Positions 25,148-32,268 of a stretch of DNA of 36,492 nucleotides are shown here, piece after piece (within the stretch, counting starts at the first letter, position 1; each line of letters begins with the position of its first letter). Below the pieces are notes generated by a model. The model was not told where the DNA came from. It searched no databases and was given only the letters and a program-made list of their open reading frames with translations. Origin of the DNA: a virus; the IMG/VR virus record IMGVR_UViG_3300047377_000027, positions 1 to 36,492 of that record. One strand, 5' to 3'. Position numbers and translations under genes: made by a program.

Positions 25148-28100
25148 ATGGCAAGCTACCAAGATAATAAGAGAAGTATGGATGAACTATTTAGTGGCAC
25201 TTCTAGTGCGCCTAGTAGGGAAGAAGACTTTTACATAGATAAGAATGTTACTCTAAAGAAGGATGATCTCAAGGTGGGTCAGAACCTAGCTAAGGTACGC
25301 AGGTACATGGCAGGACGTAAAGGTGTTGGCTATAAAAACAAAGATGTAGAAGAAACTGTAGATGACTTTGTACAACACATGCGGTACTTTAATTCCAACG
25401 CTGTTAGCACCACAGGTGAACTAAGGTTTATAAATAAAGCAGACGATAAGATGAAGAAAACTGCTAGGGATGCTTATCTGCTATATGAACAACTAGGTAA
25501 TGTGTTCCAGAATGATGGGGCTATGGGTGCTGTTGATGGTATAAAGGATTATATCTTTGCTGCAGCTAAAGACCCTACTAACTATGTAGGTCTTATCACT
25601 GGTGGTGTTGGTAGACTTCTTGCAGGTAGCTACACAGTAGCAGGTAAGAAGATTGTACTAGATGCAGTAAAGAGAGCAGGACTACAGGCTGCAAGAGATG
25701 GTGCTAATTCTACGCAGATTAGAAAAGCAGCAGAGAAAGCTGGGATGCAAGCAGCTAGAAGAGCAGCCAAAGCAGGACTATCTAAAGGTCAGTCTAAGAA
25801 AGCAGCAGAGAAAGTAACACAAGAGGTTACTAAAGAAGGACGCAGAAAAATAGCACTGGATGCCATGAAGGGCAAACAGGAAGCATTATTTGACAAGGCA
25901 AGAGGCACATCTTTAAAGGTAACCGTAGGAGCAGACGCAGGTTTTGCTATGCTACAGGATAGTCTAGCACAGAAGACATTGATGGAAGCTGGCGCTCAAG
26001 AACAGTACAGTAAAACACAAACAGCTTTCTCTTCTTTGTTGGGTGGTGTAGCAGGTGCAGCACAGTTAGGCTTCGGTAAGTTTCGTGGTTTGTCAGGACT
26101 TGAAGAACCTACAGATACACTAGGTGATATAGCTAAGACTGTTATAGAAAGTAACTCATCTATACTCTCCAGACAGGATAGTAAAAAAGTTACCAAACAA
26201 ATGCTAGAAGACATTGAGGCATGGAACTCAAAGGTAGACAGAGGTTTAAAACTAGAGGCTTCTGTTATGCCATCAGATTTGTTTTCTAATATAATGCTAG
26301 GTGCAGATGGTAAGGGTGGACTAGCAAAGCTGATGAATGATAGAGGCTTGAAGATACACTCTAATAAACTAACAGCGGATGTAGTAACTAATGTGGTTAG
26401 GTTCTTACCTGAAGAAGACTTGGTAAATATAAACAAGGCTATGGGTAAGTATACAGAACTAACACTAGGAGAGTTAGCTGACACTAAAGGTATTAACCTA
26501 AGAGACTTACTATCAAAAGATTCTAGTGAAGCAGGTAAGATCCTAAACGTTCTTTCTCAAACAAAGCGTATTGTTAACTCAGGTATTGTAGCTGCTGGTG
26601 ATAAGACTAAAAGAACTTTAGAGGATGATATAGCAGAGGCTACCCAAGAAGTAGACAAGATGAATAATTCACAGCCGTTAAAGTATGGACAGTCTGTGTG
26701 GAAACGTTTACTTGTTTCATCTCCTGCTACTACCATGATCAACGTGGCTGGCTTTGCTCAATACTATGTAGGTCAGAGTATGGCTGACTTGTTTAACTTT
26801 GGTATGCTAAGTATGAAAGCTCTTAGTCAATCTACATATGATACTACTGCTGCTAGAGAAACAATGCGACAAGCACGTGCGTATACACAGATACAATCAC
26901 AGAAGTTTAGAAACTTACTAGACCCATACACTACACACGATTCATACATGAGGTTCTTAAAAGAATCTAACAACGAAACAACACGTAAGAAGTTATTCGA
27001 AACTATGTCAGGTGGTGTAGAAGTTCAGGGTGAACGATTCGGCATGGACCCTAATAGCAAACTATTTAGAAACATAGAAGCTGGTTCTAATGCAGCAAGT
27101 AATATATCTGGTGTACGTATACAGGATAGCTTTACTAAGTCTCAGATGTTTATGACTGAGATGGATAAGTATATGCGTATAAATAAAGGTATAAGTTTTA
27201 GAGATGCTATGGTAAAGGGTGAAGAGCCTGACCTAGACGCTATCCAAGGTGCGCTAGATGCTACGCTCAAGTCTGTATTCTCTAAAGACTACACAACTAC
27301 AGAGCAGCCAGAGCTACTACGAACTGCTGCTAAGATGGCTGAAACTTTTTCTAACACTCCAGGTTTTGGTACACTCCTACCGTTTGGTAGGTTCTTCAAC
27401 AACGTCATAGCCACTTCATACCAGTGGTCACTGCTGGCTGCACCAGAACACTTCTATAAGTTCACTAGGAATGCTGTTAATGGTGTGAGAGGCAAAGGAC
27501 CAAAGAACCTTGACATAACAGAGAGAGAAGCCTTTGCGCGTTTCGTTGTGGGTAATACAGCGTTGGGTCTGTCTATGCAGTATGACAACGAAAGAAGAGA
27601 AAAGAATTTAGGTGTATATGAAGTAGATGTAGGTGGTGGTACTATTGTAGATGCCAAGAACACCTACCCATTCTCTCTATGGCTTGCAGCAGGTAGGGTA
27701 CTAAACACTATGAGAAATGGTGAGCAGGTATCAGCAGACTTACAAAGAGAGATAGGTACACAGTTAGCTGTTGGTCAGCTTGCACGTGACACACAGTTTG
27801 CTAACGACATAAACAATATGTTAGATGTGTTAACTAATGTAGACATAGACAAGAGAGCAGCAGCTATAGATGGTATGTATAAGGTTACTGGTAACTTTGT
27901 AGCAGGTTTTACTAGACCACTAGATGTACTAAACAAAGCTGTAGGTTTTGCTACAGGTACAGACACAGCTAAAGATGTACGTCAAGCTGAAGGTATCAAT
28001 ACATTCTCACAAACTTCTACTAAGTATATAGACAATATACTAGAGACATTCATTGATTCGGTAGACGCTATAACAAATGATACTTTTACAAAGATTGGAC

Positions 28101-28669
28101 TAGGTGGTGAGGATGCCATAACAGGTAAGGAGTTATCTGTAGCTACCAGATCAGGAGAGATATATGATGCTAATCCTTTTGCAAGACTGTTTGGATTAAC
28201 AGTAAAGCCTAGCAAGACAGCTACAGAAACGGTATACTCTATGGCTGACATGGCTTCTTGGAAAGCTAGTGAGAGGACAAACATACCTGCCTATGATAAA
28301 ATCTTCAATGGTATGTTAGCACCTATGCTTGAAGTTTACACTCAGGAGTTGCTAAACAATCCTAAGTTTCAAGACGCAAGCATAAAACAAAAGCGTGGTA
28401 TGCTCAAGAAAAGAATGTCTGATGTTAAAGCCAGAGTTCGTGAGAGCATGGATAGAGGCTACGCAGGATACGAAGGTAGTATTCTAAACAAAGCAGCCTC
28501 TCTAACTAGAAGCTATAGTAAAGAGACTAGAAGAGAAGCTATGCAAATGTTAAAGAAAGACTACGGTATAACTGGACAGCTAGAAGATCTTAGCTTCAGA
28601 GAGCTTGAGTTGTTTATGCGTTACGCACAGTTTATCAAAGATGCAGAGGACGAGGTAGGCAAGCTATGA
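25148..28669 (+). CDS. Large internal virion (DNA ejection) protein
   Basis: A 1173-residue protein, the largest in the window and the last on the plus strand, the place of the big internal core protein (T7 gp16-like) in podophages. Residues about 130-155 (IFAAAKDPTNYVGLITGGVG) are a motif seen in large internal proteins of marine phages. Residues 170-240 are an alanine/lysine-rich amphipathic stretch (AAEKAGMQAARRAAKAGLSK). Further regions are long helices (LLPFGRFFNNVIATSYQWSL around 743). No lytic transglycosylase motif is visible, unlike T7 gp16. It probably leaves the virion with DNA and helps cross the cell envelope. Its end overlaps the convergent minus-strand gene by 6 bases. Confidence 0.7.
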   Translation: MASYQDNKRSMDELFSGTSSAPSREEDFYIDKNVTLKKDDLKVGQNLAKVRRYMAGRKGVGYKNKDVEETVDDFVQHMRYFNSNAVSTTGELRFINKADDKMKKTARDAYLLYEQLGNVFQNDGAMGAVDGIKDYIFAAAKDPTNYVGLITGGVGRLLAGSYTVAGKKIVLDAVKRAGLQAARDGANSTQIRKAAEKAGMQAARRAAKAGLSKGQSKKAAEKVTQEVTKEGRRKIALDAMKGKQEALFDKARGTSLKVTVGADAGFAMLQDSLAQKTLMEAGAQEQYSKTQTAFSSLLGGVAGAAQLGFGKFRGLSGLEEPTDTLGDIAKTVIESNSSILSRQDSKKVTKQMLEDIEAWNSKVDRGLKLEASVMPSDLFSNIMLGADGKGGLAKLMNDRGLKIHSNKLTADVVTNVVRFLPEEDLVNINKAMGKYTELTLGELADTKGINLRDLLSKDSSEAGKILNVLSQTKRIVNSGIVAAGDKTKRTLEDDIAEATQEVDKMNNSQPLKYGQSVWKRLLVSSPATTMINVAGFAQYYVGQSMADLFNFGMLSMKALSQSTYDTTAARETMRQARAYTQIQSQKFRNLLDPYTTHDSYMRFLKESNNETTRKKLFETMSGGVEVQGERFGMDPNSKLFRNIEAGSNAASNISGVRIQDSFTKSQMFMTEMDKYMRINKGISFRDAMVKGEEPDLDAIQGALDATLKSVFSKDYTTTEQPELLRTAAKMAETFSNTPGFGTLLPFGRFFNNVIATSYQWSLLAAPEHFYKFTRNAVNGVRGKGPKNLDITEREAFARFVVGNTALGLSMQYDNERREKNLGVYEVDVGGGTIVDAKNTYPFSLWLAAGRVLNTMRNGEQVSADLQREIGTQLAVGQLARDTQFANDINNMLDVLTNVDIDKRAAAIDGMYKVTGNFVAGFTRPLDVLNKAVGFATGTDTAKDVRQAEGINTFSQTSTKYIDNILETFIDSVDAITNDTFTKIGLGGEDAITGKELSVATRSGEIYDANPFARLFGLTVKPSKTATETVYSMADMASWKASERTNIPAYDKIFNGMLAPMLEVYTQELLNNPKFQDASIKQKRGMLKKRMSDVKARVRESMDRGYAGYEGSILNKAASLTRSYSKETRREAMQMLKKDYGITGQLEDLSFRELELFMRYAQFIKDAEDEVGKL

Positions 28670-28678
28670 TCTATAGCT
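28662..28678. terminator. Palindrome at the convergent junction (weak bidirectional terminator candidate)
   Basis: AGCTAT (28662-28667) and ATAGCT (28673-28678) form a 6-bp inverted repeat with a 5-base loop, exactly where the two gene arms meet and their stop codons overlap. There is no T run on either side, so it would be a weak terminator. The placement is the main argument. Confidence 0.35.
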
Positions 28679-28855
28679 ATGCCCTGCCCACATCTTACAC
28701 TCAAGGAGTTTATCTCTAGCTTTCTTGCGCTGGTCATTGTCCTCAAGATTATCCAATAAAAACTTATCTACTACTCTTATAGCATCAGTCAAGTCTTTCT
28801 TGAACTGATTACGCTTGGCTTGCATGTAGTTTGTAGCTTCACGTTCCAGTTTCAT
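28664..28855 (-). CDS. Acb2/Tad1-like small protein (possible anti-CBASS/anti-Thoeris)
   Basis: A 63-residue helical protein. I start it at the ATG at 28855, which overlaps the upstream stop (TGATG), not at the TTG codon before it. The C-terminal helix QRKKARDKLLECKMWAGHS fits the pattern A-x2-KL-x-E-x2-MWA-x2-S/A that I remember from the Acb2/Tad1 hairpin domain; a preceding helix (DLTDAIRVVDKFLLDNLED) gives the expected helix-turn-helix. Members of that family bind cyclic nucleotide signals and so block CBASS or Thoeris. Only the resemblance is seen; function is inferred. It is the promoter-distal gene of the minus-strand arm, a usual place for accessory genes. Confidence 0.5.
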   Translation of the reverse strand: MKLEREATNYMQAKRNQFKKDLTDAIRVVDKFLLDNLEDNDQRKKARDKLLECKMWAGHSYRS

Positions 28856-29400
28856 CAAGCTGCCTTTTCTAAATTTACTGATAGTTTATTTAATACATCT
28901 TTAGCCTGTTCTATACTTATCTTAAACCATTCACCTCTTTGTTCTTCAGCTATCTTAGCTGCTGCTTTATGTGCTTGTGCTTCTGATACACGTCTATTGT
29001 TTGACACAACCACATGCTCTAGTGAGTAGTCTCTGAAGGGGCTGCTAGTCTGATAGCCATTACATCTATCATCAGCATCAACAGCCATGCCTATCTTGAC
29101 CCACTCAGGCCAAGCAGGATTAGTTATGGCATATACATATCCTTCTTTAATAGAGTCTAACTTATACGTACCATCAAAGGCTGCATCATTAAAAGTTTTG
29201 TAGCGTCCAGGTTTGTGTAAGGGATGTTTAGTTGATATAATTTTACCATTTACCCACATCCTATTTTTGTTTCTGTTTTGGTAGCCTTTATTACGTTTAG
29301 AATTACAAGGTGTGCAATAATAGTGTGCAATTCTTCTACCACTTTCTTTCCAATTAACTCCTACTTCTAGTTCTACTTCACAACCTATACAGCATTTCAT
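28855..29400 (-). CDS. GIY-YIG (T5orf172/MUG113-like) nuclease with N-terminal zinc-ribbon
   Basis: A 181-residue protein. Residues 1-45 have CCIGC ... YYCTPCNSKRNKGY, a two-pair cysteine cluster that probably binds zinc. Residues about 85-160 are a GIY-YIG-type core: GYVYAITNPAWPEWVKIGMA, an arginine (R in DDRCNGYQTSSPF), a glutamate-containing helix (RVSEAQAHKAAAKIAEEQ) and the family's GEWFKIS ending, as in T5orf172. It would cut DNA. It has a perfect AGGAGG ribosome-binding site (29407-29412) that lies in the end of the previous gene. It may be a free-standing homing nuclease, since such nucleases are often found beside reductase and polymerase genes. Confidence 0.65.
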   Translation of the reverse strand: MKCCIGCEVELEVGVNWKESGRRIAHYYCTPCNSKRNKGYQNRNKNRMWVNGKIISTKHPLHKPGRYKTFNDAAFDGTYKLDSIKEGYVYAITNPAWPEWVKIGMAVDADDRCNGYQTSSPFRDYSLEHVVVSNNRRVSEAQAHKAAAKIAEEQRGEWFKISIEQAKDVLNKLSVNLEKAA

Positions 29401-31832: not shown

Positions 31833-31915
31833 TTGTAGTACCTATTCCATATGACCATCACAACTATCCAAAGAATTATGGTCATACCTAAATGTATCTG
31901 TGTCATGTCAGTCAT
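31829..31915 (-). CDS. Tiny (28-aa) membrane peptide
   Basis: MTDMTQIHLGMTIILWIVVM plus VIWNRYYK: 28 residues, nearly all of them one membrane span with a basic C-terminal end. The ATG overlaps the stop of the MazG-like gene (ATGA) and the TGA overlaps the GTG of the next gene (GTGA). Overlap on both sides makes this more than a chance ORF, although it is very short. Function unknown. Confidence 0.5.
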   Translation of the reverse strand: MTDMTQIHLGMTIILWIVVMVIWNRYYK

Positions 31916-32268
31916 CTGTTATCCCCACTTCCCTTTATAGTTCCTCGTTCTTTTCTACTCTTTAACTTAGCTAGGTTATTTAACGCTACCTCTGCCATGT
32001 CTATCTCTAAGTCACGACACAGTGCAGCAATGTACCATAGCACATCACCTATCTCTGCTGCTATGTCTTCTTTGTTAAACGTATCATCACGCAACATCTT
32101 CTTGATTTTACCTTGTACTTCACCTGCCTCATTACCCAAGCCCAACGCAGGGTAGATGATAGGGTCAGTATAGATAGCAGTCTTTACTGCTTCCTTTTGG
32201 TAGTACCCCATGTCCATAATGGGTGATTGCATGTCTGCGAAATGGTCTATGTCTTCCTGTGTTATCAT
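31912..32268 (-). CDS. MazG-like nucleotide pyrophosphohydrolase
   Basis: A 118-residue all-helical protein with the MazG/NTP-pyrophosphohydrolase metal-binding arrangement: LGLGNEAGEVQGKIKKML (E-x2-E) and DIAAEIGDVLWYIAALCRDL (E-x2-D). The family removes pyrophosphate from (d)NTPs or related nucleotides; in marine phages it is widely linked to nucleotide metabolism of the infected cell. It starts within the stop of the 56-aa gene (ATGA) and lies upstream of nrdJ, forming a nucleotide-supply cluster. Confidence 0.8.
   Translation of the reverse strand: MITQEDIDHFADMQSPIMDMGYYQKEAVKTAIYTDPIIYPALGLGNEAGEVQGKIKKMLRDDTFNKEDIAAEIGDVLWYIAALCRDLEIDMAEVALNNLAKLKSRKERGTIKGSGDNR

Follow-up and report, generated by a model that had tools for sequence, protein, structure and literature searches.

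The DNA stretch analysed here, called the window, is a viral sequence of 36,492 nucleotides (IMG/VR record IMGVR_UViG_3300047377_000027). Its minus strand encodes, from 28855 to 28664, a 63-aa protein (translation MKLEREATNYMQAKRNQFKKDLTDAIRVVDKFLLDNLEDNDQRKKARDKLLECKMWAGHSYRS) that raises two questions: whether it belongs with the phage proteins Acb2 and Tad1, and whether it captures nucleotide signals of the host as they do. The Acb2/Tad1 hairpin superfamily is mostly uncharacterised, and messenger binding has been shown for few members. The 63-aa protein is a test case of whether this widespread hairpin fold is still a sponge after loss of the known pocket residues.

The window protein very probably belongs to the superfamily by homology. 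The preferred reading of its role, given a probability of slightly over 0.4, is that of a minimal, diverged, oligomeric hairpin that is made early and would sequester a messenger of nucleotide type at a site that has diverged. Such a protein would be built from one antiparallel pair of helices and would have neither the N-terminal segment known from Acb2 nor Tad1's beta-domain. The conserved face of helix B (A46, L50, E52, M55, W56, A57, S60) would build a trimer of hairpins or a hexamer, as in Acb2 and Tad1, and early synthesis would let the protein sequester a host nucleotide-type messenger or metabolite. The binding site would have diverged, an Acb2 dinucleotide pocket being unlikely. We infer oligomerisation, ligand binding and an anti-defence role for the 63-aa protein; since the known signal-binding residues are missing, it may bind another signal than those of Acb2 and Tad1, or act otherwise.

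The window phage groups with HMO-2011-type phages. Its relatives CRP-2, CRP-207 and CRP-603 are roseobacter phages of this type, which is among the dominant marine phage groups (PMC9038755). Counter-defence in HMO-2011-type phages seems hardly studied; a literature search joining Acb2, marine and phage, with most subscription papers outside its reach, found no paper. A conserved, unannotated superfamily protein in their early arm is a specific and testable counter-defence candidate. The original prediction saw in it an extension of Acb2/Tad1-like proteins into marine phages, which is not new as such, because numerous Vibrio phages of seawater and oyster origin already carry Acb2 proper, but the HMO-2011-type clade is new.

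Gene order, neighbours and selection

Orthologues detected by tblastn include CRP-207 gp38, CRP-603 gp43 and CRP-2 gp43 (E=3e-7 to 1e-5), and related loci in IMG/VR number about 40. The family forms two clades. Identity is 78-100% in the window clade, while CRP-clade proteins have 27-37% identity to the window protein; median dN/dS is 0.07 in the former clade and 0.15 in the latter. Such low values show that the ORF encodes a genuine protein under purifying selection. Bacterial genomes of GTDB scanned with the hairpin family contained no relative, and hence gave no hint of a prophage or host.

Table 1. Location of the hairpin gene, its neighbours and its parts in the window (aa, amino acids).
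Feature	Positions	Strand	Evidence
63-aa gene, minimal Acb2/Tad1-hairpin-like protein	28664..28855	-	translation; ~40 related loci; median dN/dS 0.07 (window clade)
Upstream early gene, T5orf172/GIY-YIG-type domain; variable neighbour	28855..29400	-	Pfam T5orf172, E=2e-12
Convergent 1173-aa late gene, 3' end overlapping the hairpin gene by 6 nt	25148..28669	+	ORF list; arrangement repeated in relatives
Motif ARDKLLECKMWA (residues 46-57), matching AKTKLKEASMWA of T4 Vs.4/Acb2	28685..28720	-	pattern search, alignment
Helix A of predicted hairpin (residues 2-36); conserved E6, A7, F18, and D35-N36-L37 at its end	28748..28852	-	AlphaFold2, alignments
Helix B of predicted hairpin (residues 41-62)	28670..28735	-	AlphaFold2 model

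The gene had been placed at the promoter-distal end of the early arm, and in all loci readable downstream it is indeed the last gene of that arm, convergent with a gene of ~1100-1200 aa; early-arm status is read here from gene order and orientation. Its start codon overlaps the upstream gene's stop codon by one base. In relatives this GIY-YIG/T5orf172 neighbour gives way to PhoH, endonuclease VII or 65-aa ORFs, and the slot at 28855-29400, with its counterpart in loci L002-L049, is a variable cassette next to a conserved terminal gene. The PhoH protein of CRP-603 (annotated as 187 aa; L003:3294-4004) has an apparently truncated start: the open frame spans ~237 aa and holds the PhoH domain almost in full.

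Phages HMO-2011, CRP-1 and CRP-345 are without the hairpin family and hold mazG in the terminal early slot. The mazG gene of the window lies at 31912-32268 (MazG E=2.4e-9), upstream of ribonucleotide reductase. CRP-207 resembles the window, with mazG upstream of ribonucleotide reductase and the hairpin gene in the terminal slot. Small ORFs beside mazG in HMO-2011, CRP-1 and CRP-345 were considered as hairpins and rejected, as they have no PF24729 match and these three genomes give no match to the family profile.

Strong purifying selection and an unchanging position suggest a core function rather than an inhibitor in rapid evolution, though both are still compatible with an inhibitor. An alternative held to be about as likely as the sponge reading keeps the protein in the same superfamily as an oligomeric hairpin with another early task than that of a sponge, e.g., modulating an enzyme of the host or the phage, or serving as an adaptor. 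Loss of the pocket residues favours such a role, as do the dN/dS of ~0.07, the position that stays fixed while neighbours swap, and the surroundings of the actinophage and Paenibacillus phage relatives, which adjoin terminase, capsid, SSB, ClpP-like protease and tRNA genes and not obvious defence islands. To our knowledge, the experimentally characterised members of the superfamily (Acb2, Tad1) are all sponges, which speaks against it, and so does Acb2 homolog 43, apparently of the nearest branch, whose structure with six chains was deposited under that name. A sponge-type function of the 63-aa protein is accepted here tentatively, as a possibility somewhat short of an even chance.

Homology to the hairpin superfamily

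The pattern A-x2-KL-x-E-x2-MWA, from which the original prediction started, is present in the 63-aa protein. From composition it is expected 7e-6 times over the six frames of the window. In ~1.05 million six-frame residues (window and collected loci) its sole occurrences are in the 63-aa gene, in close orthologues of it and in T4 Vs.4/Acb2, a tally that is no independent count because the scanned loci were mostly picked for carrying the gene. When the T4 helix was compared with 33,058 15-mers from the six frames of the window, the segment in this gene came far ahead (score 35; runner-up 25). The pattern had also been taken as a hallmark of the Acb2/Tad1 domain, which does not hold: among the reference proteins aligned (14 Acb2 and 14 actinophage), T4 Vs.4 alone has it exactly. 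Common to the window family and to both reference sets are the helix-B positions A(-9), L(-5), M(0), W(+1) and A/S(+5).

The second helix expected before the motif helix is found in the AlphaFold2 model of the window protein, a bare two-helix hairpin as monomer (helices 2-36 and 41-62, pLDDT 86). A CRP-type relative gives the same picture (helices 3-36 and 41-63, pLDDT 88), and both models have the two long antiparallel helices of the superfamily. Foldseek, proposed as a check, gave a divided result. In BFVD, the relative's model retrieves its own orthologue first and then mostly named Acb2/Tad1 hairpin proteins, with probabilities of 0.95-1.00 and E of 0.1-0.6. In the PDB, neither Acb2 nor Tad1 is among the matches listed (in one search the best 50 of 106), which are unspecific two-helix proteins; this search is uninformative, as a two-helix query would lead one to expect.

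The window protein has no match in Pfam, because it is too diverged, and its sequence retrieves nothing relevant from the PDB; a PDB profile search with the relatives' alignment gives no matches. A hit of phrog_8017 on the window protein (E=0.1) was taken as chance. For PF24729 (Acb2_Tad1_hairpin), whose curated Pfam cut-off is 27 bits, no family member reaches the cut-off, the best orthologue scoring 17.2 bits (range ~13-17). Among 24,736 models, PF24729 is the best or sole Pfam family for several orthologues (CRP-207, E=0.0058; CRP-603, 0.024; L018, 0.079), and its matches in orthologue records fall at the hairpin gene and nowhere else in the matching records. The family phrog_1454 matches CRP-type orthologues with E=6e-7 to 2e-3; it finds the hairpin gene in 13/13 CRP-type records searched and nothing in the window record. 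It also matches T4 Vs.4 (1e-3) and phiCB2047-B (3e-8), and its actinophage proteins score 53-57 bits against PF24729, above the cut-off.

Profile comparison by hhalign of the window family with the actinophage and phiCB2047-B hairpins gives Prob 94 and E=1.5e-7 over 42 columns, and none of 100 column shuffles reaches the real score (39.5; best shuffle 18.3). On whole phage genomes, the window-family profile matches the hairpin gene alone in phiCB2047-B (8e-8), Paenibacillus phage Tripp (4e-4) and Streptomyces phage SscP1EGY (1e-3); 11 other phage genomes, including T4 and PaP2, give no match. In the reverse direction, tblastn from phiCB2047-B reaches CRP-603 (8e-3). The actinophage profile retrieves Acb2 homolog 43 (5.5e-4) and Vs.4 at the head of its PDB matches, with Tad1 also among them, and thus ties the short-hairpin branch to sponges of solved structure. 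Remote homology to accepted PF24729 members is statistically supported by phrog_1454, hhalign and the reciprocal matches, and the chain from the window through the CRP clade and phrog_1454 to Acb2/Tad1, supported at every link, argues for homology at superfamily level. Directly compared, the profiles of the window family and Acb2 proper align over 19 columns (Prob 16), and the direct link is weak. The proposed Acb2/Tad1 membership is thus upheld for the superfamily by PF24729, phrog_1454, reciprocal and profile-profile comparison and BFVD, but not more narrowly, the Acb2 pocket residues and the Tad1 beta-domain being absent.

Convergence on a two-helix hairpin unrelated to Acb2/Tad1, in which the MWA motif would be a coincidence of amphipathic helices, is improbable. 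It could draw on the orthologue scores under the PF24729 cut-off, the unspecific PDB matches listed by Foldseek and the spurious similarity that short helical proteins yield. It would leave in need of explanation the agreement of Pfam, PHROGs and BFVD as independent libraries, the reciprocal profile searches that point to the same genes, the profile-profile score above every shuffle, and the gap-free alignment with the short-hairpin branch, which starts where helix A ends and covers helix B.

Residues of the binding site

Six residues, G10, Y11, N23, K26, R85 and P90, show no variation among the 14 Acb2 proteins aligned. In T4 Acb2, dinucleotide binding depends on the tyrosine Y8, and F82 contacts the ligand by stacking (PMC12657218). 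The alignment of the window family is without G10, Y11, N23, K26 and P90; Arg85 is retained in the CRP clade, and the window clade has His (or Gln) in its place. The helix-B Thr at -7 from Met, found in 9/14 Acb2 and 12/14 actinophage proteins, occurs in 0/23 of the window family, and so does the loop Arg at -14 from the same Met (0/23). The absence of these residues indicates that the 63-aa protein is not an Acb2 with the canonical dinucleotide pocket. An N-terminal extension carrying the missing GY was considered and rejected, as the in-frame upstream codons vary with the upstream gene and in L030-L032 a stop codon immediately precedes the ATG. The protein is not a Tad1 either, since in its 63 residues and all-helical model the N-terminal beta-sheet domain is absent.

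Sequestering of cyclic nucleotides against CBASS or Thoeris, as originally predicted, is left unsupported by the loss of the Acb2-invariant residues, among them the dinucleotide-binding Tyr; a hairpin without pocket residues had been named in advance as evidence against this function, and as regards the Acb2-type pocket such a hairpin was found. A strict functional Acb2 holding cyclic dinucleotides in the canonical pocket has the helix-B pattern shared with T4 Vs.4 in its favour and is highly improbable, as the N-terminal GY segment, N23, K26 and P90 are missing, the upstream in-frame extension is not conserved and some orthologues have a stop right before the ATG.

The preferred reading of a sequestering hairpin may be taken further, to a clade of minimal sponges that consist of the hairpin only, are fixed in part of the marine phages of HMO-2011 type and have a pocket re-made for a messenger that Acb2 does not bind. 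This extension is unlikely; if true, it would point to a nucleotide-signalling defence in marine alphaproteobacterial hosts.

Comparison with short hairpins, Acb2 and Tad1

Closest to the window family is the short-hairpin group (actinophages, phiCB2047-B and, apparently, Acb2 homolog 43, PDB 9ptq), not Acb2 proper. This branch (PHROG 1454) comprises actinophage proteins of 65-80 aa and the C-terminal domain of SUFG_00048 from Sulfitobacter phage phiCB2047-B. The window family has the same hairpin length, aligns without gaps over helix B and the stretch before it, starting at the end of helix A, and shares the A, L, M, W and A/S positions. In contrast to the branch, it is without the N-terminal motif RFGFHKATIEG, Thr(-7) and Arg(-14) are replaced, and helix B is rewritten (DKLLECKMWAGHSY; in the CRP clade KNLIEVQMWAERS). 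In the actinophage-type PF24729 proteins (L066, L067, L072-L113) the RFGFHKATIEG motif is nearly invariant, whereas Acb2 has a GYR motif instead. With a GYRDL-bearing query, the alignment to Acb2 homolog 43 stopped short of the GYRDL segment, and the first residues of the chain were not readable. SUFG_00048 (L051:2075-2641), a hypothetical protein of 188 aa, combines an RyR domain (PF02026, E=3.3e-10) with the C-terminal hairpin (PF24729, E=5.4e-8, over the cut-off); from its domains, it is possibly a two-domain nucleotide-binding counter-defence protein.

Acb2 (phage T4 Vs.4; Pseudomonas phage PaP2 p26 / PaMx33) is, like the window protein, a small phage protein with a two-helix hairpin, and T4 Vs.4 shares with it the A-x2-KL-x-E-x2-MWA of helix B. 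Acb2 is a homohexameric CBASS inhibitor with cyclic di- or trinucleotides as ligands. Unlike Acb2, the window protein has no N-terminal GY segment, N23, K26 or C-terminal P90. Pseudomonas phage homologues of Acb2 (L055, L059) carry the annotation 'NAD/FAD-utilizing enzyme apparently involved in cell division', which seems to be an error passed on between records. Tad1, found via the actinophage profile, has a C-terminal helix with LTHVEEALMWMNRR that resembles helix B of the window protein. Its chains are longer, with 123-138 aa and an N-terminal beta-sheet (PMC12043709), whereas the window protein consists of the hairpin only.
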